From positions 21,714,001-21,778,000 of the forward strand of contig NC_080581.1 in assembly GCF_029962835.1 (NCBI RefSeq): a stretch of DNA of 64,000 nucleotides. Direction: 5' to 3'. This DNA is from Magnolia sinica. Taxonomy: Eukaryota; Streptophyta; Magnoliopsida; Magnoliales; Magnoliaceae. The notes beneath the pieces are model-generated. The model did not search any database, was not told the origin of the DNA, and saw only the letters and a program-made list of their open reading frames with translations. The position numbers and the translations under genes were made by a program. Positions 38,691-62,760 of the stretch are shown in pieces; position 1 is the first letter of the stretch; every line of letters begins with the position of its first letter.

Positions 38691-38696
38691 GCCCCT

Positions 38697-38704
38697 ATAT
38701 AAAC
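38697..38704 (+). promoter_or_regulatory. TATA box, probably of an LTR
   Basis: CCCCTATATAAACGTG is a strong plant TATA box. It is followed within ~30 bases by CATCCAGTAAC and then purine-rich sequence, but no gene follows, so an LTR or a dead promoter is the best reading. Confidence 0.45.
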
Positions 38705-38934: not shown

Positions 38935-39098
38935 CACTGTCTGGTCAAGAGAAAGAGAAAAAGAAAGAAAAAAAGAAAGAAAAAAAGAAAAAAAAAAAAA
39001 AGTAAGAAAGAAAGAAGGAAAGAAGGAGAAATAGAAAAAAAAAATAAATTAAGAAAGAAAGAAGGAAAGAAAGAGAAATAGAGAAAAAGAAAAAAAAA
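38935..39098 (+). repeat. Purine-only GAAA/GGAA simple repeat
   Basis: About 160 bases almost free of pyrimidines on the plus strand, with a repeated AAGAAAGAAAGAAGGAAAGA phrase (39004 and 39051). The Lys-rich ORF over it is an artefact. Confidence 0.9.
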
Positions 39099-39329
39099 AA
39101 GGGAAATTCACCATACTAGCCTCAATGTATGGTCGAATTCCCTAAAAAGATTAAACGTTTTAAATATTCCAAAGGTAGCCTTTTGACAAGCTTCTGAAAA
39201 TTACTTGGACCAAAATTCTCTTTGTCCTTGGTTAATTAGTTGTACGGTTTTGCAATGAACAAGAAGTTATGTTGTATTTAATGACGTGTACTGAACCCTT
39301 TTTTAGGCATGGCAAGGACCAACTCGTGG

Positions 39330-41410: not shown

Positions 41411-41880
41411 CTTAAAAAGCTTGCCCAACTTAGCATATGGCGATAGAATCTGGCCACGAGAGAAGAAGAGTCATATATAAGGGCTCCCACAGCCATACCT
41501 AAGGAGGAGCACGACCCAAGTATGAGGCACAGACGGGCAAAAAAGCAGAAAAGAAAGGAAGATAGAGCAGAAAATACCTGAAGAACATGCAGCAGCCCCT
41601 GAGAATGCGAGTTTGTCTGAGTGAACACTCAGACAAACCCAAAAACAGCTCTACCAGCATTATCGAAACAATACTCCGATGGGCCAAGACATAGCCAAAA
41701 ACGTCGAACAAAACTGCTATCGCCACCTGAAAAATAGCAGCTCCGCCAAGACACAGAAGATCAGTGCATTCAAGCACTGAAGCTGACAGTCGGATCTAGG
41801 GGCCCCTCGAGCGGTCGATCACCGATCGTAAAGCAGCTCAAGTGAGAACTCATCAACTCTGCTCTCCATAGTGGGGAATA
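41411..41880. other. Non-coding sequence with TATA-like motif and hairpin
   Basis: TCATATATAAGGGC at about 41472 looks like a promoter TATA. The following leader-like sequence has no long ORF on the plus strand. A perfect hairpin is listed separately. Probably part of an LTR; family unknown. Confidence 0.4.
41611..41638. other. Perfect 13-bp inverted repeat, 2-base spacer
   Basis: GTTTGTCTGAGTG and CACTCAGACAAAC are separated by AA. No T-run follows, so it is not a simple terminator. Confidence 0.85.
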
Positions 41881-42785
41881 TAATACATTCTTCATGGCGG
41901 GCCACACACACACACACATAAGTAGGCCACACACCTCTACATCATACAAGAGAGAGAGAGAGAGAGACGTGAAGGGGAGGGACCCCGCCACTATTGGGCC
42001 CTCCCTATACAATGTATACATCAAGTGGGTCCCACAACAAGTGGGCCCTTAAAATAGAAATCAACGGTGGATCACCCACCTATCGGTCTCCTTCTTTAGC
42101 TCCTTGGACTCCTATGTTCCTTGCCTTCAATTTTGATGGAGGTAGATGATGAATGAATGGTTGAGATGGGAGATGAGAGAGTGGGAAAGTGGGCCACACT
42201 TGGCTTGGGAGACTTGGAGAGCTTTGGACATTGGAAATCTCTTGGGAGTTAGGGGAATTGTTAGAGAATGAGAGAGAAAGAGAGGTGATGAGTTGATATG
42301 GGATGGGTGGAATGGGTGTTGTAAGAAAGGGGATGGAGAGGTATGGGTTTGTTTGAAATTTTGGTAAAAGAGGGATGAGTAGGGAGAGAGAGAGAGAGAG
42401 TTGACTTGTGGAAAAGAGGGAGTGGGTATTTATACTTGGGATAGGGTGATGTGGCATGGGGGTATAGGTGGTGTACTTAACTTGATTTAATGTGACGGTC
42501 CATAGAGATTCTCTCGAAATTCACAACGCATGGCGTTTTCCTCAAGATGAACACGGGCCCACATCTTCTGGTCTGGGTATTAGATCAGTGTGCGAGTCAT
42601 GACATTGGAACCGTGGTGACGGCGTGGTCACTAGGGTATAAGTTTCGGGTCGAGCCAACTTTGGTTTGCAGGACTCGGCTTAGGATCGCATGTAAACGTC
42701 TTATACAAGTCAAGGGTTGCAAGAATTCGATCGGGAGGACTACAGAGGCCTACGAAATGGTACGGGGTAGGATACGGGTCTTATA
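41880..42785 (+). repeat. TGTCACGCCCC-family LTR, 5'-truncated fragment
   Basis: It aligns to the 3' ~900 bases of solo LTR 1: (GA)n, GGGACCCCGCCACTAT, AAGTGGGCCCT, GGACTCC-ATG, TTTGATGGAGGT, CATAGAGATTC-CTCG and GGTGTGCGAGTC-type phrases. It ends GGGTCTTATA where the intact copies have TCTTACA or TCTCACA. The 5' limit is approximate. Confidence 0.75.
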
Positions 42786-44250
42786 ATAGAAAACAATGAG
42801 GAGAGTGATTCCCAGCCTTGAAACTATATTAAGGCCCATCATAATGTTTATTTGAAATCCAACCTATTCAAAAGTTTAAAAAATACACTAAATAAGGGAA
42901 AACACAAATATCATCTTGATATAAAACTTTTGTTGCCTTTAGAAGTTTTTAATGGTGGGCGTTACTGTCCCAATTTTTTTGTGCTAGGGTCCACTGGGGC
43001 TTTGGATTTAACTCGTTCTTTGGATATTTCCCTAAAATGATCTCTCCAAATGGATGGAAGGTGTGGATATAAAACATACATCATGGTGGGGCCCAAAAAT
43101 AAGAGGTATATAAATATCAGGTGGACCACACCACATGAAAACAATAGTGATTGGATATCCATCATTTAAATCCTCATAAGGTCCACTATACCATTTATTT
43201 GGCATCCAATCTGTTTATTAGGTCATACAGGCCTAGATGAAGGGGAAGAACAAAAATCATCTCGATCCAAAACTTTTATGGCCCCCAAAATGTTTTAAAT
43301 GGTTGCGCTCATTCAACACTGTTACCTGTAATATGGCCCATTTTAGATTGGGATATGCCTCATTTTTGGTCTCATGCCATAAGATGACCTTTAAAAATAG
43401 ATCGACGGCATGGATTAAACACATACATCATGGTGTGGCCCGGCCATAGATCACCAACCACCAGCCATCGGATGGTGTCAGGGGGAGTAGCTAATTTGTT
43501 CCCCTTATTAGTGGTGTGGTCCATTTAATCTTTGGATATGATTCATTTTTTGGATAATTCTCTAAAATGATCTTGAAGAATGGATGAATGGTGTGGGTTG
43601 ATCCCAAATTTATAAGTAAATCCAAAACTCAACTGTACCATGCCACGCAAAATAGTGTGGAATAATGATTTCCACCATTGACATATACCTTCCTTGGGCC
43701 CACAATAATGTTTATTTGACATCTAACATGTTCAGAATATCAAAAAGATATGAATTAAGAGAAAACACAAACATGAGCTTGATCCAAAACTTCTATGAAT
43801 GTTATTTTTAATGGTGGACGTTCAATACCCACTTTGTCGGGACTTTTTTTAAAATCCATCTTGGCTTTGGAAGTATCCGTGACCCATGATCCATTCGGTT
43901 CATTAGACAATAAATCATATTTTCACCATGAATGTTAAATTTCATTCCAATATAATAGTTATGTAGATCACATCACAGTGAAAAGTGTGAAATCATGTAT
44001 AAAACATCTAAATTCACATTTTTGCACACATGAACATTTGAATACAATTGATTTTAGGAAACTCAATCTTCATTTTGTCTAGGATCAAATGAATAGAGTG
44101 GATTGCGTGTATATAGTAAGGTGATCCTACACACAATTAAGAAGATTTTAACAGATTTCTAATCTCATTTTTTCCCATTATGTAGAGAATCGGAACGTTG
44201 AATCCCTCTGATTTTTAATTCCCAATATAAATACATGGTGGGCCACCTTA
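42786..44250. mobile_element. Overlapping decayed foldback MITEs
   Basis: It contains several half-elements: CATCATGGTGGGGCCC at 43078, GTGGACCACACCACATG at 43121, CATCATGGTGTGGCCC at 43426, then GGATGGTGTCAGGGGGAGTA, the end motif of MITE 1. Interiors show AATGTTTATTTG-CATC and GATCCAAAACTTTTATGG. At least two elements seem nested; complete ends were not resolved. No gene. Confidence 0.55.
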
Positions 44251-44449
44251 TAGACGGGTTAGATCTTATCCATATGAATCCATCCTGAACAAACTAGCAA
44301 ATGTAACACGTTCATCCATACGAAAGTAACACTGGAAAATTTTGTATATTTAATTACTATTGATTGATCCATCATCAGCGAATGCAGGCTTTTTAAGCGA
44401 GCGGATTAGATGTCACCTCAATCTCATCCAACATGGTGCCATCCTGATT

Positions 44450-44860
44450 GTGGGGCCCATATTGATAAATGTATTTTGTATCCACGCCGTCCATCCGTGT
44501 TTTCAGCTCATTAATTCTAGAGTTAGATCCCAAAACTAAAGCATATCCAAATCTCAAGTTGACCACACCACAAGAAAAGTGGGAATTTGAATCAAGCTAA
44601 TATCTTCGTTTTTCCTTCATCGACATCTTTCTGACCTTATCAACAAGTTGGATGAAAAAAAAAACATCACTGCAGGCCCTAGTAAGGTTTCAACTATGAA
44701 CATTATTATTCCCACAGTTTTTTGTTGCGTCGTCTATTAAAAGCTTGGATATACTTTTTTTTTTCTTTTAACCTAAAATGAGCTGAAAAAATAGATGAAC
44801 AACATCGATTAAACACATAAATTAAGTTGGGCTACAAATTGTCCATACACGTGGTGAGAA
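44450..44860. mobile_element. Foldback MITE, moderately decayed
   Basis: TGTGGGGCCCATATTGATAA on the left pairs loosely with the right part (ATTAAACACATAAATTAAG), and the usual centre GACCACACCACAAGAAA and GACCTTATCAACAAG is present. No target duplication was identified. Confidence 0.5.
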
Positions 44861-44869
44861 CGGAAACAT

Positions 44870-45184
44870 TAACCATTGAAATCTTCTCGGGGATTGCCAA
44901 GATGTTTTATTATAAAATATTTCAAAAAAAATTTTAAATACAAATTCTGAATTTTCATTTTTAAAATCTCAAAAATTTCTCATATTTTAATTTTTTTTTC
45001 CTCAAAAATTTCAAAATGCTGATTTTTTTTTTTTTTTCGAAAGCATCATTTTGTTTTCAAAATTTTTCTCAAACATTGTTAAAAAATTTTAACTTCACAA
45101 TATTCTTTTTCATGTGATATTACAAATCATTTAAATATTACTTTTTAATTATATATAAAAAAATTTCCACTCATATAATTTCAA

Positions 45185-45187
<3 letters not shown>
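44870..45187. other. AT-rich non-coding sequence
   Basis: A/T runs without a gene. Confidence 0.6.

Positions 45188-45246
<59 letters not shown>
45188..45246. repeat. (TA)n microsatellite
   Basis: About 29 consecutive TA units. Confidence 0.97.
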
Positions 45247-45249
<3 letters not shown>

Positions 45250-45252
<3 letters not shown>

Positions 45253-46225
45253 AAATAGAGGATTATTACCGACGGTTTTGTACGTTGGTAAAAACAATTA
45301 GCGACGGTTTTCAGCCGTCGGGAAAAATTTTCATATTTATTTTTGGTGATGAAATTAATCATTGGTAAAAACACTTTTATTAAAAGTGAGTTTTCGGACG
45401 GGGTGGGAATTTTTAGTCCGTGGCGGGAACCTTTCCCCGATGGTTTTAGTTCGTCGGGAAAAGCACTTTTACCGATGAAGATAGGTTTCATTGGTAAAAA
45501 CATAGTACCAGATTTTTTCCGACAATTTAGGTCCGTCAGGAAAAGCACTCGTATCGACAAAAATAGTTTTCGTCGATAATAGCATTGTATCGGATTTTTG
45601 CTGACGGTTTATGTCTGTCGGGAAAATAGTTTTACCTACGAAATCAAAATTTTGTTGGTAAAAGTAAAATTTTCGATTTCTTATTCTTTTCAAAAAATCA
45701 AAACAACCATTACCGATGAAAATTTTCTTCGATAAAAATGGATTTTACCTACGAAATTATAATTACATTGGTAAAAGTAAACTTTTCAATTTTTTTTTCA
45801 AAAATTCAAAACAACCATTATCGACGAAAATTTTCATCGGTCAAAAAGACTTTTACCTATGAAATTATAATTTTGTCGGGAAAAGTAATTTTTCCAATTT
45901 TTTTTTCAAAAATTCAAAAGAGCCATTACCGACGAAAATTTTCGTCAGTAAAAAGGAATTTTACCTACGAAAGTATAACTTCATCAGTAAAAGTAAATTT
46001 TTTCTTTTTTTTTTTTCAAAAATTCAAAATAGCCATTATCGAAAAAAATGTTCATCGGTAAAAAGGACTTTTACCTACGAAATTATAATTTTGTTGGTAA
46101 AAGTAAATTTTCAAAATTTTTTTTTCAAAAATTCAAAACAGCCATTGTTGACAAAAATTTTCATTGGAAAAAGGACTTTTACCTACAAAATTAGAATTTC
46201 GTCGGTAAAAAAACATATTTCTTGT
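45250..46225. mobile_element. CACTA-like subterminal repeat array (CGTCGGTAAAA), non-autonomous
   Basis: The first part has ACCGACGGTTTTGTACGTTGG and related CCGTCGGGAAAA phrases. From about 45650 there are five ~109-bp tandem units (anchor CCATT at 45707, 45815, 45923, 46033, 46142) containing CGACGAAAATTTTCGTCGG-type palindromes and TTTACCTACGAAATTATAA. The left edge (ACAGAAAAATAGAGG) and right edge (ATTTCTTGTA) look like worn CACTA ends (CACTACAAGAAAA). Such motifs are typical CACTA subterminal repeats; the assignment is an inference. Confidence 0.5.
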
Positions 46226-46231
46226 ACGGCT

Positions 46232-46815
46232 AAAAGTCTACATTTAAGAATATTGAAAAAAATTATGAATCTTGAAAGAATAATTTTTAAAATTTTTGAC
46301 AATTGTGAAAAAATTGAGAATTTTGATAAAAAATTGAGTTTTGAAAAAGATTTGAATTTTGAATTTTATAAGAACTAAGAATTTTTTTAAATTTCGAGAA
46401 CTTTTAAAAAGTTAGGAATTGTTTTTTTTGAAAAATTAAGAATAAAAAAATGATAATTATGAAAAAGTATAATTTTTTTTTAAAATTAAGAATTTTAAAA
46501 AAAATTAAGAAATTTGAAATTTTTGAAAAAAAAATAAGAATTTTGAATTTGAGAATCTTGAAACAAATTGGAAAATTTTAAAAAATTGAGAAATTTCAAA
46601 TAATTGAAAATTCTGAAAAATAAAATAAAAATTAAGAATTGATTTTTTTTTTTTAAATTTTTAAAAAACTGAGATTTTTAAATTTTTTTGATAAATTTCT
46701 ACAAATTTATATTCTTGAAAAAATTTAGAATTAAAAAAAAAATTTAAGAATCTTGATTTTTTTTCTTTTGAGAATTTTCGTAAAATTGATAAAATTAAGA
46801 ATTAATTTTAGTGCA
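46232..46815. other. A/T-rich low-complexity DNA
   Basis: Variations of AATTAAGAATTTTGAAAAAA. No gene. Confidence 0.75.
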
Positions 46816-47135
46816 GGAACCCAAAAATGAAATATATCCAAATCTCATTTTGGGCCTTGCAAATGAACGAACTCGATTTCCGCATTGACTACCACATGTA
46901 TTTTAGAGAGATATAGAGAGATGAGTATACCATATTTTGTTTCTTACGGATCCAATATATCATCTCCGTGGCTTTTATTCATTTTGGAACTTGGAAGCTC
47001 GAAGCAGAGCTCTCTCTTAAAATCCCTAAGCTCCGAAAGGGAAACAAAGTGAAATCGCGTTTTACTTTTACAATTCTATCTGTCAAAATCCCCAGGCTCT
47101 GAAAGGAAAACAGATCGAAATCGTGTTTAACTTCT

Positions 47136-50100
47136 TGTAACATCTCGAAAAAATTCGTACAAAGACCCGAGTACCCCCTCAGGCAGAAATCATTAATGAG
47201 TGAATCCTTTAGTAATTAGATGAAGATTAATTAAGTACTAAACTCAAGCACCGATGGAATTAGCTTAAACTATTTTCTATACGAACTACAAGACCCAAAA
47301 CCATTGGAATCGCTAACCCAACATTACCTAAAAACCTAGGATAAATCTCAAAACCCATTTGCTCTCGGGATCACACTGAAACTCCGTATTGGACCTGGAC
47401 CACGCGTCGAAAGTCCGATGACCGCGAAACTATACGGTTATGACCGCCTTACTGGGCTTGACAAGTGTCATAGGAATCGAATCCGAATAGTATCTAGAAA
47501 CGCACAACTTGAGCCCGGAGCGAAGTATGTGAGAAACGCGAATATCTTTAAAAAATGAACTCAAACTTAAGTAATCTGGGCTATTTACTTGCAGGCCAAA
47601 TTTAAGGTTTCTGACCATCAGAATCTAACCCAACTACACCCTTGGATCAGAGAAATTTCCCTACACATGTCAGTGTACTTGTGGCCTTAATCGAGTAACG
47701 ATAGCCGTTGAACTGAAACTGGTCCTCCTTAGTCAATCCACAAATTTGATCGGACCAAAATCTTAGCCTGGCATAGATCCATCATCAGGGAACTTTCTCC
47801 AGACCGTATGCAGGTAATGGGCCTCCAGATGAGCTCCATTGGCCCGAAACAGCCACTTTTAGGCTATAACCTAAGTATACCATGACCCTAGGGCCATTAA
47901 CTTCACTTCTGAGCCTATATAAGACCCTTAACCCACCCCTCTCTCATTTCATACGAATTCCCTAAACCCTAGGAGAGAGAAGAGAGAAAGAGAAGGAAAG
48001 AGTGAGGAGAAGTGAGAGAGAGTTGTGGTTTGTTGCTGGGATTCATTCCCGCTACTCCATATGCTGAATCCCCTCTTCCATGTCGCTATACCAGCGATTT
48101 TGACTCCATTTTTGGGTAAAAAATCCTAAGCCTAATCTGTTTTAGGTATCCAAATAGGTAGATCGGTGAAATAGCTAACCTATTTAATGCTATAAGTAGT
48201 CATTGTGTCGTAAACAAAGGCATAGTGTACGAATCGAGTTCGTAATCGGCGTACCGATGAAAAGTGCAGACTATAAACGTTTAGGTTATGGTTTTCAAGG
48301 CTTTCAATGTCAGTTAATGATTTATGACTGACTTGATTGCTGTCACATATACTTAAATGCGATGTTTTCCATGTATTATACATATATATGAACTATGTTA
48401 AATATAATGCATCTCATGTATTTGTTGAAATGTTTGAATAAATATAGAATCATGATTTGTGCTTGCCATGATTATTGATTGAGAATACATGATTGTTGTA
48501 TGTGTGACAACTCCTTTGTGAAAGGATTTGCTACAATATATGTTATGACAAATTTATTACATGTATGATGATATGTGTAGTCTAAGTGTTTGATAAAATG
48601 CTTGAATGAGAAAATACTGATTTAAATGTATTTTATAAGGGTGTTGAGATAAGATTCTAAACTACCTTAGCTACAGGTATAGATTCCTTCTTGTAACCTA
48701 AATCTAATTACATGATTTATGTATGAAATGCATGTGTATGATGTCATGTTCACTATGGGTTATATAAAATGCTCAAATGGTTGCAATGCTTGAATTGTTT
48801 GTTCAATATTGTTATGACTATCATATGTGAGTGTTATTGCTTTGGAGTGTGATTGGGGCTACAATGTAGTCCAGGCAATCGGTAACGACTTCTGATCGAG
48901 TGGCTGAATCAGTTTTGCCACCACAGACACGTTCGAAGAATCCGAGTCCTACGGTGATTATCAACAGTGGTTAGGCCACAAGGAGTGTGTATGCACTCCA
49001 TGTGATCAGTTTATCGTGCGCTCGTACCAATTAAACCTATCAAGTAACCCGATTGACCTAATGTATATTCACCATGTATGACCTAATGTATGTTCACCAT
49101 GTATGGTCATTACTAGTACCACTTACCACTGAAAAACCCGTTTAACCTTGGTACAGCGATCCGCTAAGACTCATGAGCCGGGCATGATGGTATGGGACAC
49201 CATGGTCGAGCTGTTGGCCTACATTGGCATGACAAGTCTCCCCGTAGTGTCCAGTGAGCAACCCAAACTCGTGATCTGAATACGCTGGTATGGGACACTG
49301 TGTTCGAGTTGTCGGCCTACGTTAAGGTGACGAACCTTTCCTGTAGTGACCTCGAGTATAAACTAGGCCTACACTAAGGTGACAAGCCCTTCGTAGACTT
49401 GAAGTTGCCTATCAACTGCTTTATAAATCAAGGGTGATGTTGCCCTATAACTTGCCTATCGTATGTAACTAACTAGGATTGAAAACCCTAGATGGATCCT
49501 TGTTTGGGTAAATGATGTAAAGGGAGGTACATTGGCTTCCTGAATATGCTGTATAAATAGGTCTAATTAAGAACTTGGCTAACACGACCATGCACTGCAT
49601 TGCATGTGCCTTTGGCATGGGTGTTGATCACAGTGAGAGTTTAGCATGTGCAACCGTGAGATGATGTCATAGAGGGAGTGCAGGCGAGGGCATACATCAT
49701 TAATACATACCATTCTTGCATTAACAAGAGTACTTAGGACATGATTGTTGTACTGCTTTATCATTACTGCTTGACTGAATTGATAACATGTTAACCTTTA
49801 CCTTATAGCTCCACTAAGTTGATCACTCACTTTCACTATGGGACGGTGTTTTAAAACACCAAGCAGACTCTTTTGTAGTTTCAGATGATGGCGAGGCTTA
49901 CGAGTTGGAGCTGGTCTTTTATGACGATGAGGAGGAGTTCTCCTACATGCAACTCTCTGACGGGTCTATGTAGACATAGAGTTGCGTCGTAGGGATCGCA
50001 GGGATACAGACTAGTTGAACATTATACTTGATCATTTTGTATAATTTTGGAACTATATATGTAATTATTTAACCTGGTGACATATTCATACTCTAGTGAC

Positions 50101-50314
50101 TTACAACCACTTATATGTTTTATATATTTATCAGTCTTCCGCTTGCGTAATCTAATTGTCTCTGGAGTACGATGTGCTGATTTAGTGTAATCCCATTCAT
50201 GTTTAACGCACTAATATGAACAACATTTAATCATCATTATCTATGTTGTATAAGTGATGCGTTGGAGCTCGAGAGCTGAGCTTCTACTCAACCCTCGATT
50301 TTTGGGGCGTTACA
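47136..50314 (+). mobile_element. Solo LTR, TGTAACATCTCG family, 3.2 kb
   Basis: It begins TGTAACATCTCGAAAAAATT, ends TTTTTGGGGCGTTACA and is flanked by perfect CTTCT (47131-47135, 50315-50319). There is a TATA box (CCTATATAAGACCC, about 47913-47926) followed by a GA-rich leader. Inner partial repeats near 49190-49390 (TGGTATGGGACAC, TCGGCCTAC) are non-coding. The start and end wording resembles Tekay-type LTRs, unlike the TGTCACGCCCC family. Confidence 0.88.
47916..47923 (+). promoter_or_regulatory. TATA box of solo LTR 3
   Basis: GCCTATATAAGACCC in an LTR that is otherwise intact. It could start transcription rightward toward the captured exon mosaic, since the LTR has the same orientation. 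Confidence 0.5.
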
Positions 50315-50319
50315 CTTCT

Positions 50320-50390
50320 GCAATTCGATCATTTACAATGCCTAGAAACGTCGATTTTGTCACACCAGTAATCTCTTCGCCAATTTCAGG
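50320..50390 (+). pseudogene. Possible captured 5' leader exon of unknown gene
   Basis: ATG at 50339 reads MPRNVDFVTPVISSPIS, then TTTCAG-GTACTCG, a possible splice donor. I do not recognise the protein. It continues the leader-like sequence left of solo LTR 3. Confidence 0.35.
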
Positions 50391-51430
50391 TACTCGTTCT
50401 AACTTTTTTTCTACTAATTTCTCAACTGATATCCTTTCGAAAATCAGGAATCAGGGCAGAAATCTCTCATTTTTGTGCATTTTCCCCATTTGGTCGTTTA
50501 AAATCCAATTTTTGCATTTTTTGGTTCGATCTGAGGAGGTTTTTTTTTGCTGATTTCACTGAAATCTTGCTCGGGAAGTGGAAAATCCTGTCGTTTCTAG
50601 CTCATTTGCTGGATTTGAGCAGTTTCTGCATTGCAATATCAACGATTAGGGTTTGGTGTTCAATCTGAGAGTAAAACCTTGTTCTTTGCTACGAAACCTA
50701 CTCCATTACCGATTTTCGTGCAGGCTAGATAGACAAGGGGAATATACAATGATTGCAGCTCCTCACCGAACCGAACCCTAGCTCTTCTCTCCGTCTTCTC
50801 CAATATTTCTCTTATCTTTGTTATATCTACCATCTCTCTCTCTCTCTCTTTCTCTCTCCGATCATCATATCCTCAAAAGATAGTGGTTACACCTACAACC
50901 CACAAAGAACAGATGCCTAAGCATCTAGATCAGATAGAGCACGGATGACAGAGCAAATAACAGAGCAGATGATGGCATAAATGAGAGATACTATAAACTC
51001 AATGGCAGCAGTGGCCCTAACTTCGAGAAATGTACTAAATGTAGAGACTATTCAAGTATCCACTCCTAGGGATATACCTGAGGTTGAGGGACCTCAGTTG
51101 AAGAGGTCGATAAATCAATAGGTAATTTTTTGTTGGGATTCATTTATGTGTGATCTTTTACATACATATTTATGTTTTGTTACATTTCACTAGCCATTTA
51201 TTAAATACTCTTCAAATGTTTTCTTGTGCATTTAATAGCCATGCTTAATTTGTTGCTAGCTATAGGTTTTGTGATCCCTTCATTTTTGTAGTTCACCATC
51301 ATTTAATAGTTGGTCCCTATTTATTTTTTTCAAGTCAAGTCATATTTTTGTGTATTTATGTGTTTAACACAAAAGAATCCAAGAACTGACTCTCTTTTGC
51401 ATGCTAAGATCAATCCAAGGCCATGACAAT
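50391..51430 (+). other. Intron-like or element-internal sequence of the mosaic
   Basis: T-rich, with a CT microsatellite near 50830 and a Met/Ala/Thr-rich short stretch (50940-51120) that I cannot assign. No intact gene. Confidence 0.4.
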
Positions 51431-51444
51431 GCCAAGAACAACCA

Positions 51445-51534
51445 CCTAGTGACTTCTCTATTGCTTAGTTCCGGTTTCTGGAGCGACTACTTGTCATCCA
51501 TGGGCACTGGTGCTATAAAAGGATTTCCCAAATG
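51445..51534 (+). pseudogene. Captured exon: P4-type ATPase (phospholipid flippase)
   Basis: The frame reads SDFSIA, a TAG in place of the usual Gln, then [20 protein letters not shown] and QM, directly followed by a GTAAGA splice donor. This is the strongly conserved stretch before the last membrane helices of aminophospholipid flippases (ALA proteins). Only one exon end is present and nothing else of the ~1,100-residue protein. The premature stop makes it non-functional. Confidence 0.82.
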
Positions 51535-51684
51535 GTAAGAACTACAAAATCCCTTCTTTCTCTGCTTTCACTCAATACAAAATTGTATATTTATATGGGT
51601 TACATGGCTAATTCATACTTGTAGAAACTACATTAATTGCATTCAAATCTATTATTTCTTTTATAAGAATATTTTATTTTGCAG

Positions 51685-51760
51685 TGATTTTATTGTGAGT
51701 AGGCGACTCATGAGCAACTGTAATGACTGGTATTCCAAATTCCGAACTCAACTTGCTGCA
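51685..51760 (+). pseudogene. Captured exon of unidentified gene
   Basis: It lies between a good acceptor (TATTTTGCAG) and a donor (GTAAGC). One open frame of 25 codons reads SRRLMSNCNDWYSKFRTQL in its middle. I cannot name the family. Splice sites and position argue that it is another transduplicated exon. Confidence 0.5.
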
Positions 51761-51917
51761 GTAAGCATTTTGGATATTGTAAGTTCTTTATAATAGACTG
51801 GGAATGTACATGAATGTTCTTATTACATATTTTCCCTTGAGCATCAAGTAGCCCTGTTCCCTATCTTATTTCTTTCCTAGACCTGTAGTTGTAATATAAT
51901 CTGTTTGTGCTGTGTAG

Positions 51918-52200
51918 TTTGTTCAATATGGGAATGAGGGAAGCATTGTACTGCTCCAAGCCTACTTAGATCAAGTGAAATTTCAGAGCGAAGACTTTCA
52001 GTCAAATCCAGATCTTCTATCAGCTATCTTTAGATACTTTTTGGGTAGACCAAATTTCACCACAGTTTTCTATGAAGCACTGAGAAGTAAATTGATGAGT
52101 GAAGGATTTCTAGAAGGTCTCTCCAAGCAATTGCATTTGTCTACACCCAAGAATATTGTTGTTGGTCTTGCTCTGTCAGATTCAGGAAATACGGATTTCA
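51918..52200 (+). pseudogene. Captured exon: CCR4-NOT scaffold NOT1 (N-terminal region)
   Basis: After an acceptor (CTGTGTAG) the frame reads FVQYGNEGSIVLLQAYLDQV, then FRYFLGRPNFTTVFYEALRS, GFLEGLSKQLHLS and VVGLALSDSGNTDF. This matches the N-terminal region of plant NOT1, the large scaffold of the CCR4-NOT deadenylase, as I remember it (…YGNEGSILLLQ…, …RPNFSTVFCE…, …IGLALSDSEN…). The frame stays open to 52365 but similarity ends near 52200. There is no sign of the other ~2,200 residues. Confidence 0.75.
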
Positions 52201-52383
52201 TAATCAGAGATGAGTTGCTTGGAGGAATGTATCACACGCTCCATGAATTACATGGTGCATTTGTCCACTGTGACACCAGTGTATTTTTTCCATTTCTCTT
52301 TCATTTCATAGATCAGATGCACTTATTCCTGCATCATATTCTATTGCATTGTCTTTTGGTTTTCTAATTGATTTTGGTGATAG

Positions 52384-52591
52384 GGAAGATGATCCATGTC
52401 CCGAGCAAAAATGAGCATGCTCTTGATATGGCTACTGCAGTTCATCATCAATTAGGAGATACTAATGAGCTAAATGATGGCAATGCCTCAATGAAGAAGA
52501 GAACTAATGTGTTACTTCTTGGTGATCGCCTTGGAGATCTAGGAATGTCTGATGGTTTGAACTATGAGAACCAAATTGTTGTTGGATTCTT
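52384..52591 (+). pseudogene. Captured exon: HAD-type cytosolic 5'-nucleotidase (UMPH-1 / m7GMP nucleotidase-like)
   Basis: It is bounded by an acceptor (TTGGTGATAG) and a perfect donor (GTAAGTAA). The frame reads KMIHVPSKNEHALDMA, then NVLLLGDRLGDLGMSDGLNY and ENQIVVGFL. LLGD-LGDL-MSDG is the HAD motif with the metal-binding aspartates of pyrimidine/7-methylguanosine 5'-nucleotidases. The frame is undamaged through the exon, but the rest of the enzyme (about 300 residues) is missing. Confidence 0.85.
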
Positions 52592-53438
52592 GTAAGTAAA
52601 TCACTGCCTTTCTGTCTTTTATAGTTATAAATTGTCAGTTTTCCTTTTTCCTATGAACCGTTACTTGTAGATAACTAGTCTTAGTTGAATTTGTTGGGGT
52701 TATGTTTCAAAAGCTTGTTCCATCAGCAGAATTCCAACCAAAATGTCATATGCTACCCTAAAATTAGTTAGAATATTTCCCAGTTTCAAATGAAGTTGTA
52801 GATAACTAAATAAAAGAAGTCCTAGGAATTTTATGTTGATAGGAACAAAGCCTCGATTGCATGATCTCCCCCTGGCTTGGAAGAACTTGGCTATGTCGAG
52901 TCTAATTTAATTTACTGCACCTAGAGTTCTGAGTTGATGTGCTAATGATCTTCAGTGGAGATCCGTGTGCATTCAGACCTTGGTCAACCTTTTCATTTCA
53001 CCAGACATAATTTGTGCTGCAATTTTTTCATTAAAATTCAACCAGGTTACTTGATTATTAGTTTTTTTTTTGTAACTTTTGATAAAAGAATCTATTGATT
53101 AAGTCTAGTTTCTATTTTCGCATATACCTCTCATTTACGGCGACAATAGCAAATCACTCAAATTTAGTTTTCTGTGTGAAAGTTGTTTGGTTGAAAACAT
53201 TACACATTCTCATGTAATATCTCCACTGTATTAAATGATTCACCTTAGGAGACCATTTCAAAGGAAAGAGACCTGCTTGTTTGTTGTATTTGCCATCGCA
53301 AACACGGTGTCTGCATAAAGGTTTGGCTTGCTTAATCATTTGTTTTCTTCTTTAAAATTCTGTAGGTTTCACTCCAAAAATGAGAGGTAGACTTTATGTT
53401 GTTTGCTTTGCTTCACCCTACCTTCAATTGTCCTACAG

Positions 53439-53582
53439 TGTAATCATGAAGACTGTCAAACTGCATTTCATCCTACTTGTGTTAAACGTGCTAGCCTGCA
53501 CATGGATGTGAAGACTGATAGAGGCAAGTTTTTTCAGCACAAGGCTTATTGTGAAAAGCATAGCTTGTATCAGAAAAAGAAG
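53439..53582 (+). pseudogene. Captured exon: extended PHD finger of a chromatin protein
   Basis: It is exactly 144 bases (48 codons, phase 0 at both ends) between an acceptor (GTCCTACAG) and a GT donor. The frame reads CNHEDCQTAFHPTCVKRASL, then HKAYCEKHSLYQKKK: the second half of an extended PHD domain with its Cys and His zinc ligands (C..C…FHPTC…AYC..H). The first half of the zinc finger is missing. The parent is a PHD-finger protein that I cannot name further. Confidence 0.78.
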
Positions 53583-53982
53583 GTCATATCAATTGCTTTT
53601 GAAGAATGAACATCTTATGATGCATTGTCTTTCATACGATAAAAGTCTTATGTCACAATGCATAAGTTTATTTCCCCTACTTCATCTTGGTTTTTATCAA
53701 TTTCTACGGCTAAGAGTCTGCAACATGGACTTGATGAGGTCCGCTGCATTAACCAAATCCGGGTTAGTGAGAATGTACTACAATCCACATCTTGTTTGTT
53801 TTCTCATTCATTATCGGATCCTCCTTTTGGGTTTCCTTTCCAGCACTTCCAACTCTCAATTCTACTCTCCTTCCTTTCCCTACACACAGCCATCTGCATT
53901 TCATTTCTTGTTTGAGAGTTTCCATTTCCAGAAAAATGGAGTGATTTGAAACGAATTTCTTTCTTTGTGAAAATAAATTCAG
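53583..53982 (+). other. Intron-like spacer in the mosaic
   Basis: Short ORFs only; a readable stretch near 53720 (HGLDEVRCINQIRVSENV) is not recognised. It ends in a splice acceptor (AATAAATTCAG). Confidence 0.4.
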
Positions 53983-56900
53983 GTGCAGGCATGGGTATTT
54001 CCATGTGGTGAACTGTCACGCCCCAGACTTGGTAACCGGATTCACAAGGAACCCGATGGCTGGTTCTGGCTGCAACAGCCTCCGTAGTACCCCATTCTCG
54101 GCTCCTGAAGCAGGTTCCGATCCTGGGATCCTACAAGGAGGATTTTCATAACAATATAACCATTTCCAATACGAGCATACCCAAGATCATAACAAGTAAA
54201 TCTGAGAATAAAAAAAGGCACATATCACAAAATCCACTATGAATTTGAACTTTTACAAGTTTACATAAGGTCCAAAAGGACATACATAAGATAATAAAAG
54301 AAAGAAAGGAAGGATGCAATACTGGGTCCTCAAGCTCAGCTCTAATCCAAACTCTGCCACTGCGACACCTGCCTAGGATCTCCTGCACGCATCAATCGTG
54401 CATAAGCTTATAGAAGCTTAGAGGGTGGTGTAAGTGTGTGATAATAGTGTACAGAAGAATAATAGGAGATACAGGAAGGAGACATGCTCAATGAGAATAT
54501 CACTAGCCTTACCAAGGCTTATCATGAATATGATGTAATGAGTACTGGACGCCATACCAAGGCAATGCATGAAGGGGCTTACATAACCAATACAAATACG
54601 ATGCAAGTAATGCTAGTGCTCATAACCAAACCGTATGTCAAGTATATTTCCAATCATAAGGAAATCACCGGGGTCCATTACATTGCTGGATGACTGCCGC
54701 TCTACAGACCCCGCACAGTCAAACGAGCGTAAGAGACCTCACTACCCGCCTGTGGACAACCAATCACCAGCAAGGCCTGACGGTAGCGGACCCATTCATG
54801 AGCTGGTCAGACTCAGCCTAGCAATGCCCTCTTACATCAGGCGAGTAAGGCCACACCCCTATCCAACCGACTACATGACAGTGGGAGTCGCGGCCTAATG
54901 GTATAAGGCCCTCGTGCACTCATATATTCCACCCGGTCACGGCGTTGGAGCAGATCCTTGGTAGCATGAAAGTTTTGGAAATTTCACCCATGGGCATCCT
55001 ATGCACCCAGTATGCTCAAGTAACATTTTCGGTGTCTAAACATGGCCATCCACGATGTATCTGTGGAGGCTACAACCCTGATGAAGCAAGGGTGATAATG
55101 CTCATATTATGCAATGCCAGATGCATGAATCACACAATCAACTATGCATCAATTCCAAGCATCCAACATGCTCAAGAGGGAATATTACGTCCCTCGGGAA
55201 GACATCATGCAATGCCCAATGGCACAATCATAACCACACACACAGTGTCATCCAAGCATACAATGATGCACATGGGCCATGAAGATGGGTCTAGGCGCAT
55301 TATGCGGCGATATACAAAGTAAATTACATTCCTCCTATCCAAGAAGGAATCAAGACTAGGTACTTAGACAATATCTATAAGGAATCCCACCTCTAGTGGG
55401 GGCCCATTTACCTGGGGTAGCCCATAAGACTAAGCATACAACTACGAGTCTAAGTAATATAGAAATGAGCCTAGCAACTGTCTAAGATAAGTATCCAATC
55501 ACTTTTAAATACAATCAGACCTAGAGGGGTCCATAATGGGGACATTTAACCACCATTCCCCAAAAAGGCACATCTACCATGAACTATATGGATAAAAGGC
55601 CCAAGGCTTACATTTAAGATAAAAATAAAAGTAACCACATACATATATTCCTCATAATAAGCCATAAAAAGATATAATACCACTTTTAACAACATGGCTC
55701 TAAGAGGGAAATTAAGACCCAAGGCCCAATTCCCAATGGCCATAGAATCCATGCATTAAGTTGGACTTGGTGAGCAGCCCGCGTACACAATATACGGCCC
55801 AAAAATAGGTTTAAGTTTGGATGAAATGGGCCCCACTACATCAGCCCAATAATTAGCAATTTAAGTAGGCAACTGAGGGCCCAATACTATCCTTACCTCA
55901 GCCCACAAGTCCATCAAAATGGTGGAAGTCGGCCCAATGTATGGTTGGGCTAAGCTGGGATGTCCCTGCCCAATCTGGGCTCACTGGATGTCCCAAAATT
56001 CTGATCTTAAGATGGGGTCCTCATAAGATCACTAAAAGTGACCCAAAAGAATGCACTGATTAAGCCCAAGGATTATAAGAAAGCATAAGCATGTAACACG
56101 TACACAAGTTCTCAATATGGTGAGCCCCACAGCCAAATAAAGTTGTAACCATAAAATTGTACATCGAAGGCCCTTTGATAAACTTTTGGCCCATTTGACT
56201 TCCTGGGCCTGCTAAGGTCCAGAAATTAGTTGAGTATGTGGAAATGATCTCATGAAGGCCAACTATACTCACTGGGGGACCCCACCAGATGGAGAGTGTG
56301 TATATATCATGAAAAGATCAAGTGGGCCTGCTACTGGATTGTGAGTCCAGCAGTAACCCAAGGCAGAGAGTGCTTCCACAATCGGGTGATCCAAGGCTTG
56401 GACGGCCTGGACCAAACATGCATTAAGGTAGGTTCCACATACATGCACATTGAGCCTTAAATAAATAGCCTAAGGTCTATGGTGGGCCTTTAACCACCTA
56501 TAGAGAAACCTATGAGCTTACCTTAGGATCACCCAGGAGGACATAAAACCTCAACTGGTTTCCAAGAGGTAGCTCACCACTACCCATATAATGAAAGATC
56601 TAAGGCCTAAGCAATGTGTGGACTAGTAGGCCATACACCAAGCCCAACTCATAAGCCATATAGTGGGCCCTCAAGTAAGGTTTGGGCCCAACCACAAAGG
56701 TCATAATTCCACATATTGTGGTGGGCTTCATGGGCAGCCCAATAATTCATTTACATGGGCAAGTTTCACATTTAACACAAGTGAGTTAGGCCTCACTTTT
56801 GGCCTAAGTACAGGGTCGGTTTAATGGGCAGCCAAGGGCTCGACTTCTTGTGTATCATTGCCCCTAAGCCCATCACAATAGATAGGAGAGTATAGGCTCA

Positions 56901-59900
56901 AGATCAATGGGCCTATCCAAAAGAACTGAGTCCACAAGGCCTACTTGCTAACACAAACATGCATATACTATATCACATAATGGGCCCTAAAGAAATGGCC
57001 CAAAACAAAAGTCATCCAATTCATACATTATGGTGGGCTTGAGTGCAGCTCAAAAATCCAAGAATACACATAGGCAAGGCCTATACTGATAGTGTGAGCC
57101 TTACCACATCAGCCCAAAGACTTAGCAAGGCCCTCCACACTATACATTTATGTGGGCCCCGCAAGTCAGCCCATAATTAAGCATTTCATGAGGGCATCAC
57201 GGCTAATAAATACACACGGTCAGCCTGTAGACGGCCCGTTGGGCCCGTGAAATAATAAGGTCTGGCCCTGCACGATCTTGGGCTCAAGAAATAGGTTTCC
57301 AGCCCATTGGGCCTATAAACTACCAAAAATCTGGTTAAGGCTAACCCCCAACATCACCACAAAGGTGGGCCTTAAGAGGAACTAATTATGCCCAAAAATG
57401 TCTAAGGAAATAAGGCAAGGAGTGTGTGCAATACTCCCTTAAATATGGTGGGCCACAACAGCTCCAAAACAATCAACTATGGAGCAAATTTGGGCCCCTT
57501 ACTGGAATTTCAGCCCACCCACTTCCTGGGCCTGCTGGAATCCAGAAATTTATGTAATTCCAGATGGGTTACTAGCCCATGGTGACCCACACATATTACA
57601 GTGGGTCCCACCGGATGAGAGGGGAATGCACAACACATATTAGAAGTGGGCCATGCCGCTGGAATACAGGCCCAACAACAGCCCAAGGTAGGGGCATCCC
57701 GTGATGGGTAGTCCTACGGGCCTGAGTATCTGGACCAAAACTGACCCAAGTTTGCAGGCCACACCACGATCAGTACAGGGGCCCGATGGCCATGAAAATT
57801 TACAAGATGGTCCTCCCATAGGTGGACCACGAATCCTCAAAATTTTGTGATTTTTGGAGGGTCAGAAGTATTTTAATTAATTTAAATAAAACAGACCATC
57901 AAGAAAATCTGGTGAATCGGGACACCTGAACGTGGTGAGCCATTCTATCACTTGTCACGGTGTACACAGGGCTCCATTGGCCCCAAAAAATTTTAGGTGA
58001 TTCCCACCATGGGTGGACCACCTCTCTGTAAATTTTCATAATTTTAGGATATTCAAAAGTATTTAAATTAATTTAAATAATACAATCTATCCAGGGTGAA
58101 ATATTGCTGGAATATAACTGTCTTGAATTTGGGCCATCCAATGGGTGGGTTCTGGGCCTCCAAAATTCCTGAAATTTGGACCCAAGGTCCCTCATCAAGA
58201 CTAAAACAATTTGGCATCCAGAAATATGGCCCACTTTCTTAGAAATTATTTTTTTAATATTATTTTTATGGGACTATGCTGCTGGACTGCACAGCAGAAA
58301 TTTCTGGCAGTCCAGTATGTTGGCCCACCCTTTTGGATGCCCAAATAGGATTACTTGGCCCTGAAATTGTGTGAATAGGTCCTACCATGGGTGGGACACC
58401 TCCCTACAAAAATTTAGGATTTTTGGGATAGTAAAAATATTTTATTTAACTCATGCAATTTATGGACAGCAAGGTCCAGATTTTTATTTTCCTGCTCCAG
58501 CAATGCTGCGGTCCTTGACTTTAGCACCCCATTTGAGTGGGCCCAGGTCTATGTAAATTTGGAAAAATGTAAGGCCAACCTTCCCATACAAGTATACAGT
58601 AAGGTGGGGTCCACAAAGGTGGCCCAACATTTCAAAATCAGGCTGATATTTATGATTTTCCAGCAAACAGTGTAGCTGGACAATCCAGAAAAATCTGGAC
58701 CGTCCACCCTCCTTGGCCCACCCTTTTGGGTGATCAAATAGGGACATTTGAAGGTGAGGTTTAGCATACTTTTAGATGGGGTCCACACCTCAAAGAGAAG
58801 TCTAAGAAATCAGGAAAAAGGAGACCACAAACAAGGCCTACAACCCATACATTACAGGATAAAAAAAAAATTCCAGCAATCTGGATAGCAACATGTTGCT
58901 GTCTAGATCAGCCCAAAAAATTTAATAAATGGGAAATAAATCATAGATTCCACAAGGTGGGGTCCACCCTGATGTGTCACACAACTCCCAAGCCCAGTCC
59001 CTCCCCAAGAAAATCTATAAAATCAGGCCCAAAGGCTTTCCAAATCAAGCAGCAAAACTAGGCAGCACAGTTGGGCCTGGGTGTCCAACAACTTGGGCCT
59101 GGATGTCCCAAAAATTTAAAAATTCTGGTTGCATGGCACATCAGGTGGGCCACATAATCATTACATCTAAACCATAGAAAGTGGAGAAGAGAAGAATAAA
59201 GGAAATCTCATCAAGATGGGGTCCATGGAGAATGGCCTCATCAAGATCACATGCATGCAAGTGATGGCTAAAAAGACCTTATTCAAGGAGTGGTGGACCT
59301 TCACCATTGATGTGGTGAGTCCTACACTCTCCATATGAAGCAACAAAAGATCTATGAAAATAAGAATCATGCAATCTATCCTACATACTCACCCACTTGT
59401 TGGATCTTCAAGATTCTTCAATCACCATGCTCCTTAAGCTTCAAGGAAGGAGGTTCAATGGTGATGATGGATCTTTGATGGTTAGATCTAGGGGGAAAGA
59501 AGAGGAAAGAGGGCTGGAAAAGTTCAGCAATGGAGGACATTGGAGGGCATTTGCAAAGAGGATAAGAGAGAAATGAAGAAAGAGAGAGGGAGATGAGAGA
59601 GTTTTTAAAGTTGAAATGATTGCTTTCTTAGAAAAAGATGAGTTTTGAAAAGAGAAAATAATCATTGCTCATGGGATAGGGTGGCTCATCATTGCCTAGA
59701 GAAGCTAATCTCATCATGGTTTTCTTGAGAAAAGAAGCCATCATTGCTAGGCTAAAGGTGGCTTACATGGGGAATAGTGCACATGGGGAAATGTGCAATC
59801 AGGTGGGTCCCACCAAAAATGCAATCAACGGTCCAAATAATGCGCGGCCCATAACTTTTGATGGACACGCTGGATTTACGCATGAGACGCGGCACTGGAA

Positions 59901-60217
59901 CCGCGGCGACGATGCGGTCGCAATGGCATAGGTCTTGGGTCAATCCGAGTCGGGTCTACGTGACCAAACTCGAGGGTGACTGCAATCACTATCCGAAGGT
60001 CGCGGGTCGCCGAAATTTGACCGGTAGGACCGCGGGACCAAAATACACGAGATGCATACTCACACACACACATACACACATGCGAACTCGGGTTAGGTCT
60101 CACATGAACAATGACTACACTCATTGGGAGATGTATGCGATTGGCAGAAGTGCAAATCCCACCATCAACAGCCAGGGCAACAAGTTTCTTGCCCCGACGA
60201 ATTGCTTTGCCAAGGAG
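53983..60217 (+). pseudogene. Captured pectate lyase exon, split by solo LTR 2
   Basis: The left piece (53983-54013) follows an acceptor and reads CRHGYFHVVN. The right piece (60110-60217) reads [20 protein letters not shown], then [16 protein letters not shown], and ends at a GTAATG donor. The two pieces fit in the same frame once the 6.1 kb insertion and one TGAAC copy are set aside. They are the well-conserved core of PL1 pectate lyases, cell-wall enzymes that cleave pectate. The exon was about 139 bases long; no other part of the gene is near. Confidence 0.88.
54014..60104 (+). mobile_element. Solo LTR, TGTCACGCCCC family, 6.1 kb (copy 2)
   Basis: It begins TGTCACGCCCCAGACTTGG, ends TTAGGTCTCACA and is flanked by perfect TGAAC (54009-54013, 60105-60109). 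The first ~1 kb aligns with copy 1 (CAGCCTCCGTAGTACCCCAT, GATCCTGGGATCCTACAAGG, CACGCATCAATCGTGCATAA) and so does the last ~230 bases (ATGAGACGCGGCACTGGAAC). The middle (55380-58800) is about 2 kb longer than in copy 1 and full of TGGGCC/GGCCCA phrases. No ORF with a recognisable domain. Confidence 0.9.
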
Positions 60218-60531
60218 GTAATGTAACAGTAACAATTGAATTCTCTAACATCTCCACTACCATAAACTACATCTACAAATTGAAAAATGATATGAGCAAG
60301 CTCTATTAGAGTAGATTCCCACCACTAATCCTAGTATATTTGAAATATTTGTTATAGATTAGATTATATTAGATTTTAGGTTACCTTTAGTATATAAACA
60401 TGTCATTGCCAATGGAATAATTCACCGAAGATCTTCACAATGTAGTTGCTAAAATGTAAGAACTCAGTGATTTGGTCCTTAGTACAAGCTAAATGTATGT
60501 TATCTCATCTAGTGAGGTTGTCACATTTCAG
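60218..60531 (+). other. Intron-like spacer in the mosaic
   Basis: A short readable stretch near 60400 (EDLHNVVAKM before GTAAGA) may be one more exon piece; not identified. It ends in TCACATTTCAG, the acceptor of the next exon. Confidence 0.4.
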
Positions 60532-60627
60532 GCACTTGTGGTGAAGCTAAGGGAAGGCACCGGGCCAAATGCTAATACTGGTGTTGTCACTAGAGTTCTT
60601 GCAACTGTTGGGGAGCTTGCTAGGGTG
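60532..60627 (+). pseudogene. TOR: Captured exon: TOR kinase HEAT-repeat region, part 1
   Basis: It is exactly 96 bases (32 codons) between an AG acceptor and a GTAGGT donor. It reads ALVVKLREGTGPNANTGVVT and RVLATVGELARV. It fits the N-terminal HEAT repeats of plant TARGET OF RAPAMYCIN, with ALV-KL and VGELARV as I recall them, and the neighbouring exon makes the call stronger. The frame is intact here, but it is only ~1% of TOR. Confidence 0.75.
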
Positions 60628-61023
60628 GTAGGTTTACTTCCCTATTTTTTGGGTTATATTTTGTATCATGTAGTGTGCTGGTACAAGTTCCAATTTCATC
60701 AAGTCTGATACTTTAAATTAGCTTGCCTTTTATGTGGGTGGTATGAAAAGGAATGGTGAAAAGGTTCTATTTTGATGCTAAATTGTCGAAGCATTGCTCT
60801 AGGAGTTTTTGCTTGTTTACTTTAATTTGTAATAAGTAGTGATCATGTTGTCATTTTGGTATCTACCTCCTTTCATAGAGGCTAGCATACTTGCTTGCTG
60901 CATTACACTTTGGGGACCACATGATGTGAGGATAATCACTTACCAGTTATGTTTTCACATGGATGTTTTTTCTCTATTAGCAATGGTGTGATCTTAATTC
61001 GTTTGTTGTGGTCCTTGTTATAG

Positions 61024-61154
61024 GGAGGTTTTGGAATGAAGCAATATCTTGGTGAACTAATGCAAGTAATTGTTGAAGCCCTCTTGGATGGAGCTGCTAT
61101 TATAAAGTGGGAAGTGGCTGTCGCAACTCTTAGTCAAGTTGTACAGAGCACTAG
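61024..61154 (+). pseudogene. TOR: Captured exon: TOR kinase HEAT-repeat region, part 2
   Basis: 131 bases between an acceptor (GTTATAG) and a GT donor. It reads GGFGMKQYLGELMQVIVEAL, then LDGAAIIKWEVAVATLSQVV and QST. This corresponds to the plant TOR segment GGFAMRQYI-ELMPLIVEALLDGAA-KREVAVSTLGQVVQSTG. It follows part 1 in the order expected in the parent gene, and the ~400-base intron between them is kept, which shows DNA-level copying. No kinase domain is present. Confidence 0.85.
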
Positions 61155-61329
61155 GTATTGTGTTCTCATTGCTAGTCCAAGCTAGAATAAAGAAGGATGG
61201 TTATGTCAGCCTATCAGGTTGGCAGCCAGCATTAAATTGGGCTGATGTTTTTATCATGAATCCTGACAACTTTGAGATTTTTTTTTTATTTTAGAAAATT
61301 AAGAATGGGTCCTGATTGAGCATGTGCAG

Positions 61330-61690
61330 GTTCGGGGGCTCCCTTGTGCCCACAATTTCCAAGTGGAATGCATTGACGAGTGGCTCCAGCTGAATGTGAA
61401 GTGCCCCCATTGCCACTACTCCATCTTCCCTAACCTCGACCTCAGCGCCCTCTCCAACCTTCACGCTGACTCTGGGCGTCCCTCTACTAGTGTTTTGACG
61501 GCCACACACTACGTGCACATGCAACCAGTAGGCCAGAGCTACCTGTTGAGGTTGTAGGGCCTGCTATGCACAATCCGAATGGAGAATGCTGGTGGAGGCA
61601 ATGATGATGCTAGCCTGGAAGCAGCAGAAGATGGATGGGCAGTGTTATCTCAGGGTCTACCAAGCACAACGGCACCGGTGATGACGGGCA
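61330..61690 (+). pseudogene. SIS3: Captured last exon: RING-H2 E3 ligase SIS3-like
   Basis: After an acceptor (GCATGTGCAG) it reads VRGLPCAHNFQVECIDEWLQ, LNVKCPHCHYSIFPNLDLSA, LSNL. This is the second half of the RING-H2 domain and the tail of the membrane E3 ligase SIS3 (sugar-insensitive 3). The second zinc-binding His of the H2 pair is Gln (HNFQ for HNFH). A TAG at 61555 replaces a Gln codon; tail similarity (ENAGGGNDDASLEAAEDGW) continues beyond it. The first RING half and all membrane segments are absent. Confidence 0.87.
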
Positions 61691-61867
61691 TGACCATGAC
61701 TTTGTATTATTTGTGGAACCTAATGTTGTGTAACAATTTGATTAAGTTAAACTTTAAATCGACTATTGTTAACTATTTTGTAGGTATTGTGGCATTCATG
61801 ATTGATTGCTTCATGAGTGGATTGAATGAATGGATTAGTAGTTTAAATAAATATTTTAAAAAATAAA
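61691..61867 (+). other. CACTA internal sequence
   Basis: AT-rich bridge between the SIS3 fragment and the subterminal repeats. No gene. Confidence 0.45.
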
Positions 61868-62309
61868 TATTTTTAGCCTCAATTTGTAACTGAGGCTTGG
61901 ATTTAGCCTCGGTCGTTGGGAACCAAGGTTGAAATTCCTGTGGCTAAAGGCTTTAGCCTCGGTTGTTAAGAACCGATGTTAAAAATAGATTTAGCTTCAA
62001 TTGGAGGCAATTGAGGCTGAAATTTGGATTTAGTCTCAGTTAGAAACAATGGAGGCTAAAATTTTGATTTAGCCTCATTTCAAGAAAACTGAAGCTAAAA
62101 AGGTTCTTTTAGCTTCACTTGAAGAACCGAGGCTATAAAAGTCATTTTAGCCTTGGTTGCTGAAACTGAGGCTAAAGTCTTTAGCCATGGGGGTTTCAAC
62201 CTCAGTTTGGATAACTGAGGCAAAACTGAGGCTAAAGCTTTTAACCTCAGTTTTTAACCTTTTTAACCACAGTTTTGAACCGAGGTTAAAGCCCCCTTTT
62301 CTTGTAGTG
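61868..62309 (+). mobile_element. CACTA transposon end: subterminal repeats and terminal CACTACAAGAAAA
   Basis: TTTAGCCTC(A/G)GTT and its complement AAC(C/T)GAGGCTAAA alternate more than ten times. The stretch closes with CCCCTTTTCTTGTAGTG, the complement of CACTACAAGAAAA, the classic plant CACTA terminus. TTG (62310-62312) would be the 3-bp target duplication. It lies inside an Athila-like pol fragment whose coding sequence stops exactly here. The matching left end was not found in the window. Confidence 0.88.
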
Positions 62310-62312
62310 TTG

Positions 62313-62760
62313 CATAATGAATAACGTAGGGCTTCTTTTCTTCTTTCTGGCCTAACATCGCCCCAATAGCATAGTCAGACACATTACACATAAGTTCAAA
62401 AGGAATGCTTCAATCGGATGGCTGCATGATAGGTGTGGTAGTTAACATGCCATTGAGCTTAGAGAAAGTTTCTTCGCATTGCTCAGTCCACTCATATCGT
62501 ACATCCTTTTGAAGTAAATTACATAAAGGATGAGAGAGGTGACTAAAGTCCTTTATGAATCTTTTGTAAAACCCAGTGTGTCCTAAGAAGGATTGCACGT
62601 CTCGTATGCTTTTGGGTGGAGGTAAGGTAGAGATAAGATCAATTTTAGCTTTATCTATCTCAATTCCCTTAGACAAGATAGATGATATGTCCAAGAACAA
62701 TTCCCTTATGAACCATGAAATGACACTTCTCCCAATTTAGTACCAAATTCTTTTCCTCAC
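62313..62760 (-). pseudogene. Athila-like Ty3/gypsy RT/RNase H fragment
   Basis: Minus strand, read leftward: LVLNWEKCHFMVHKGIVLGH, then STLPPPKSIRDVQSFLGHTG, FYKRFIKDFSHLSHPLC, WTEQCEETFSKLN and FELMCNVSDYAIGAMLGQ. Typical of the Athila group. The first RNase H Asp (MCDASDYAIG) is Asn here. The coding part ends abruptly at the CACTA terminus on the left and at another repeat on the right (about 62760). Confidence 0.85.

Follow-up and report, generated by a model that had tools for sequence, protein, structure and literature searches.

CACTA elements and Helitrons that carry fragments of several unrelated genes are well described, and the locus analysed here, a mosaic of gene pieces followed by a CACTA-type terminus in a 64-kb stretch of Magnolia sinica DNA (contig NC_080581.1, positions 21,714,001 to 21,778,000; this whole stretch is the window, numbered from its first base), is a candidate member of this known kind. 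The closest precedent is Tgm-Express1, a 5.7-kb soybean CACTA element in the wp allele that carries five unrelated host gene fragments (PMC1947982). Tgm-Express1 and the Magnolia mosaic both hold exon and intron pieces of unrelated host genes with canonical splice sites; in Tgm-Express1, however, the inverted-repeat ends are known, the insertion is in an expressed gene and chimeric RNAs are described, whereas the Magnolia mosaic has one visible end, contains other genes and is read from DNA alone. We found no statement on fragment orientation in the passages of PMC1947982 drawn on here.

Three further systems, each compared through excerpts of the cited reports, resemble the locus in part. The Pack-CACTA (Pack-TYPE) elements of Arabidopsis, maize and rice likewise combine a CACTA-type end with captured coding DNA, but their annotation relied on paired termini, target duplications and copy clusters, whereas the Magnolia mosaic offers a right end at one locus (PMC8903248). 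CACTA-like elements of Chenopodium also contain host gene fragments, but these lie beside transposase-domain genes in the 5′ region of the element, whereas the Magnolia pieces scanned gave no transposase match (PMC8978399). Maize Helitrons hold up to 12 gene fragments acquired by stepwise capture (PMC3288121), whereas no Helitron end was found for the Magnolia mosaic and the terminus that was found is that of a CACTA element. We found no paper joining Pack-TYPE elements with Magnolia, which by itself says little.

Our analysis suggests that the mosaic and the CACTA end are probably parts of one decayed, non-autonomous CACTA transposon of the Pack-CACTA type that gathered gene pieces. In the window (G+C fraction 0.41, no N), positions 50315–61698 hold one- or two-exon pieces of seven named plant genes (P4-ATPase flippase, NOT1, UMPH-1 5′-nucleotidase, an extended-PHD protein, pectate lyase, TOR and SIS3) together with three unnamed pieces, all on the plus strand; CACTA-type subterminal repeats and then a CACTA terminus come after the SIS3 piece. 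The mosaic is interrupted by two inserts resembling long terminal repeats (LTRs), here called a and b, both flanked by perfect 5-bp target duplications; without insert b, the seven named pieces span ~5.3 kb. The features are as follows (E, expect value).

50315–50389, plus strand: unnamed first-exon-like piece with ATG, MPRNVDFVTPVISSPIS; donor GT at 50390; 50315–50319 is the right CTTCT copy
51430–51534, plus strand: exon piece of a P4-ATPase flippase with an in-frame TAG at 51466–51468; left edge approximate
51685–51778, plus strand: unnamed exon with AG/GT edges
51918–52208, plus strand: NOT1 exon piece, stop-free, beginning at residue 34 of the Magnolia protein
52209–52278, plus strand: unnamed piece, open in the NOT1 frame (DELLGGMYHTLHELHGAFVHCDT); right edge inferred from GT
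52384–52591, plus strand: UMPH-1 pyrimidine 5′-nucleotidase exon (Pfam PF05822, E 1.9e-13)
53249–53320, plus strand: extended-PHD piece, probable first exon by reading frame and position before the second exon; start inferred from AG
53439–53582, plus strand: extended-PHD piece, second exon (PHD-like PF13771, E 3.8e-7; Jade-3, 2.7e-4)
53983–54013, plus strand: pectate lyase exon, left part; its last bases are the left TGAAC copy
60110–60217, plus strand: pectate lyase exon, right part; 60105–60109 is the right TGAAC copy
60532–60627, plus strand: TOR exon 1 of 2, by protein comparison and splice edges
61024–61154, plus strand: TOR exon 2 of 2, by protein comparison and splice edges
61330–61698, plus strand: SIS3 last-exon piece; in-frame TAG at 61555–61557
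61872–62290, no strand assigned: CACTA-type subterminal repeats, TTTAGCCTCGGTT and its reverse complement; a motif cluster with inverted arms
62297–62309, minus strand: CACTA terminus CACTACAAGAAAA; outer end at 62309, TTG next
62310–62760, minus strand: Ty3/gypsy-type pol, end of reverse transcriptase into RNase H, broken off at the CACTA end
47131–47135, no strand assigned: CTTCT, left target-duplication copy of insert a
47136–50314, minus strand: LTR-like insert a (3179 bp, TGTAAC...GTTACA), interpreted as a solo LTR; CTTCT on both sides
54014–60104, no strand assigned: LTR-like insert b, 6091 bp, TGTCACGCCCC...TCTCACA; TGAAC on both sides; within the pectate lyase exon

Protein and profile comparisons identify seven unrelated genes, as had been proposed from the sequence alone. 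The flippase piece matches Pfam PF16212 (E 1.5e-13) and flippases in PDB (best 8.5e-7), and the SIS3 piece contains a RING domain (PF13639, E 1.3e-6); the UMPH-1 exon has weak PDB matches (best E 0.001), and its identity rests on Pfam. For pectate lyase and both TOR pieces the Pfam scan returned no match, and the names come from comparison of the right pectate lyase part with Jun a 1 (E 3.2e-8) and of TOR with human mTOR (E 6.8e-11); a 22-amino-acid piece from another frame of the probable first PHD exon likewise had no Pfam match. The NOT1 piece, without a match in Pfam or PDB, owes its identity to one protein-database comparison with a joined query, in which it matched a Magnolia sinica NOT1-type protein at E 1.9e-42; 84.8% of 99 aligned residues (to 52214) are identical, and identity to a protein of Persea is 61%. 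In a second joined-query search the SIS3 piece matched a SIS3-like protein of Magnolia sinica (E 5.5e-33; 79.2% identity over 125 columns) and one of Asimina triloba, top among the matches listed (E 1.5e-34; 73.4% over 109); these matches come from the best 120 of 826 rows, which were crowded by SIS3-type proteins, and that list was not used to judge the UMPH-1 and pectate lyase pieces or the unnamed ones that shared the query. The nearest proteins are those of magnoliids and by themselves point to a plant of the Magnoliales, probably close to Magnolia.

The unnamed exon of the sequence-only reading is present at 51685–51778 but is not the only one, as two more were found (the first exon ending at 50389, and 52209–52278). 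Comparisons with Pfam, PDB and the protein database, over the lengths covered, matched none of the unnamed exons convincingly; NOT1 likeness fades across 52209–52278, for which protein comparison gave no match. Nine further plus-strand stretches yielded nothing in a profile scan beyond a Colipase-like match at 0.041, and an Rfam scan of 43500–64000 gave no match reaching the gathering score. The proposed common orientation holds for all named pieces, and it is on these that the claim rests, because the profile scan of the minus strand covered 10 of its 74 open stretches of at least 28 amino acids; no match in these 10 exceeded the cut-off, those below it being Apyrase (E 0.004), K-box (0.045), DUF3981 (0.065) and XAF1_C (0.13).

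Had the region been copied by simple segmental duplication, the parent genes should be neighbours elsewhere, a possibility raised with the original proposal and one for which we found no supporting point. The relatives of NOT1 and SIS3 are not neighbours, because they lie on contigs of different length both in Magnolia sinica (105460429 vs 77824990) and in Persea (62867237 vs 48947417); this comparison presumes one assembly per species and covers two of the seven parents. Moreover, each piece comprises just one or two exons, and we regard segmental duplication as extremely improbable.

The splice sites noted earlier fit the sequence: AG precedes all 8 exon starts and GT follows all 9 exon ends examined, a set that excludes the left boundaries of the flippase piece and the first-exon piece; several edges were picked by seeking AG or GT, so this agreement is one of consistency and no test. 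Because introns are retained between the exon pieces, we infer that capture was from DNA and not from spliced RNA. The mosaic looks like a decayed relic, because two of the seven named pieces contain nonsense codons (flippase, 51466–51468; SIS3, 61555–61557); the other five are open across the recognised stretch.

At most, we would expect the mosaic today to be transcribed into a spliced chimeric RNA or one associated with silencing, and to have no other function; no sign of function was seen in the sequence of the mosaic, and the element is presumably silent. The idea that the mosaic forms a chimeric gene through rightward transcription and splicing, with small RNAs or protein that would affect TOR, NOT1 or SIS3 in a magnoliid, appears highly doubtful. 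Weak support comes from the frame obtained when the exons are spliced in order with insert b removed: the longest open frame has 293 codons and reads the unnamed exon 51685–51778, NOT1 and UMPH-1 each in its own frame and parts of the neighbouring exons in other frames, and a frame as long occurred in 82 of 2000 random exon orders. Starting at the ATG of the first-exon-like piece (50315–50389), the frame is 23 codons long. Small interfering RNAs have been linked to genes captured by maize Helitrons, Pack-MULEs and Sirevirus elements, CACTA elements not being among those named in the part of PMC13317346 drawn on here.

The CACTA subterminal repeats and terminus claimed for the right side were confirmed: the terminus at 62297–62309 is followed by TTG, and 15 of the 18 matches to TTTAGCCTCGGTT in the window (at most two mismatches) lie at 61872–62290, against a mean of 1.1 matches in 20 first-order random sequences; as the motif was drawn from 61872–62290 itself, the count describes the cluster and tests no prior motif. 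Dense direct and inverted repeats of the kind that mark CACTA subterminal regions thus occur on the right side only, and captured host coding DNA is present as the seven named pieces, provided that these lie inside the element. We infer that they do, because the mosaic and the CACTA end are adjacent and no boundary was visible on the way from SIS3 to the subterminal repeats; the 173 bp between them (61699–61871) show no second terminus.

These 173 bp leave room for another account, namely that the mosaic arose independently, by other capture or by insertions and deletions, and that a truncated CACTA end came to abut it after a deletion near 61699–61871. The lack of a left CACTA end and of left subterminal repeats in the window would fit this account, but the seven named pieces, with their common orientation and their compact span once insert b is left out, resemble a single capture product, and the passage from mosaic to CACTA repeats is without a visible boundary; we consider such an origin unlikely. 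A Helitron might instead have gathered the pieces in one orientation, the CACTA end being a separate element. Helitrons have the capacity for this, the helA elements of maize carrying 0 to 12 gene fragments (PMC3288121, in the part used here), yet a search for a hairpin followed by CTRRT found 0 on either strand of 43501–62400 (0.1 per strand in random sequences); the scan sought 3′ ends with exact stems of at least 7, which an aged end could escape. A Helitron origin seems improbable.

A Pack-CACTA element is thus the best reading, and the gene mosaic and CACTA right end on which it was first proposed are real, but the window yielded no left end. The sequence-only reading had expected a CACTA end further left, a TTG duplication and the matching half of the broken retroelement, which that reading called Athila; none of these was found in the window. 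No left terminus and no left cluster of subterminal repeats were found in the window, tblastn with the window's own pol peptides did not recover the left half of the interrupted gypsy pol (distant relatives would escape such a search), and the TTG beside the right end (62309) has no left flank in the window to pair with. The best-matching candidates for a left end also fail. Plus-strand matches to CACTACAAGAAA with one mismatch occur at 29687 and 44566, and these are the 2 matches to the 19-base end on that strand at up to four mismatches (0.05 expected) and again at up to five (0.85 expected), with 6 at up to six (5.8 expected); both begin with CACCA, are preceded by CCA and lie within a dispersed repeat. 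Together these results weigh against our interpretation, and Pack-CACTA stays a candidate name because the left terminus, left repeats and left pol half were not found in the window. No transposase match was found among the pieces scanned, in a scan short of all six frames, and no left part of the element was found in the window.

Two other candidates were rejected: a minus-strand match with one mismatch at 49337–49348 lies within insert a, and a second CACTA-like remnant at ~45250–46230 has a different repeat motif and a visible end that faces the mosaic. This remnant consists of ACCGACG/CGTCGGT repeats and 108–110-bp tandem units, with a degenerate end TTTCTTGTACGG. The dispersed repeat, at 28137–44597, occurs as diverged copies, some with CACCACAAGAAA, which mimics a CACTA end. 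Among 158 inverted-repeat pairs, none of the 25 longest brackets the mosaic; these belong to the two repeat clusters, to AT-rich tracts, to the dispersed repeat (43531/46805) or to insert b (56214/59367). The mosaic may begin left of 50320, the border first assigned to it, because DNA left of 47136 adjoined 50320 before insert a arrived; 46805–46842, left of insert a, already matches the dispersed repeat.

Under the Pack-CACTA interpretation, the element would have picked up genomic pieces, both exons and introns, from at least seven unrelated plant genes, probably in several steps in which compatible neighbouring CACTA ends were mobilised jointly with the intervening DNA; capture by joint mobilisation of adjacent elements has been proposed for Pack-CACTA (PMC13317346 and PMC8903248, in the parts drawn on here). 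With the mosaic already aboard, the element would have inserted into a Ty3/gypsy retrotransposon; two LTR retrotransposons would have inserted afterwards, probably recombining to solo LTRs, and the left part of the element may have been lost or may lie outside the window. The broken pol at 62310–62760 resembles window positions 27–281 (E 9.5e-16), its match to RT_RNaseH_2 reaching just E 0.058. If the left end were found, the locus would count as a magnoliid Pack-CACTA that drew on at least seven genes, and would serve as a test case for stepwise capture and for whether capture preserves reading direction.

The two solo LTRs of the sequence-only reading correspond to LTR-like inserts with perfect CTTCT and TGAAC duplications, probably in the solo state. 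Insert b splits the pectate lyase exon, and rejoining its flanks gives an uninterrupted pectate lyase frame. It is most simply a solo LTR, although 6.1 kb is long for one, because no LTR-sized repeat pair was found inside it, only a 70-nt family of three copies, 70–73% alike. A relative of insert b, also starting with TGTCACGCCCC, lies at 22054–23071 (two stretches, 70–76% identical). The minus orientation of insert a was inferred from the resemblance of its end to TGTAACGCCCC; nothing similar to insert a was found elsewhere in the window at E 1e-3.

Elsewhere in the window, a 554-amino-acid open frame at 33380–35044 matches DUF247 (PF03140, E 4.4e-93), and a tandem array at 39336–41543 has a spacing of 355–401 bp and five to six matching copies. 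Direct repeats of 238 bp at 5728–5965 and 14412–14649, 93% identical and 8.7 kb apart, are perhaps an LTR pair; an integrase frame (8255–8989) lies between them.

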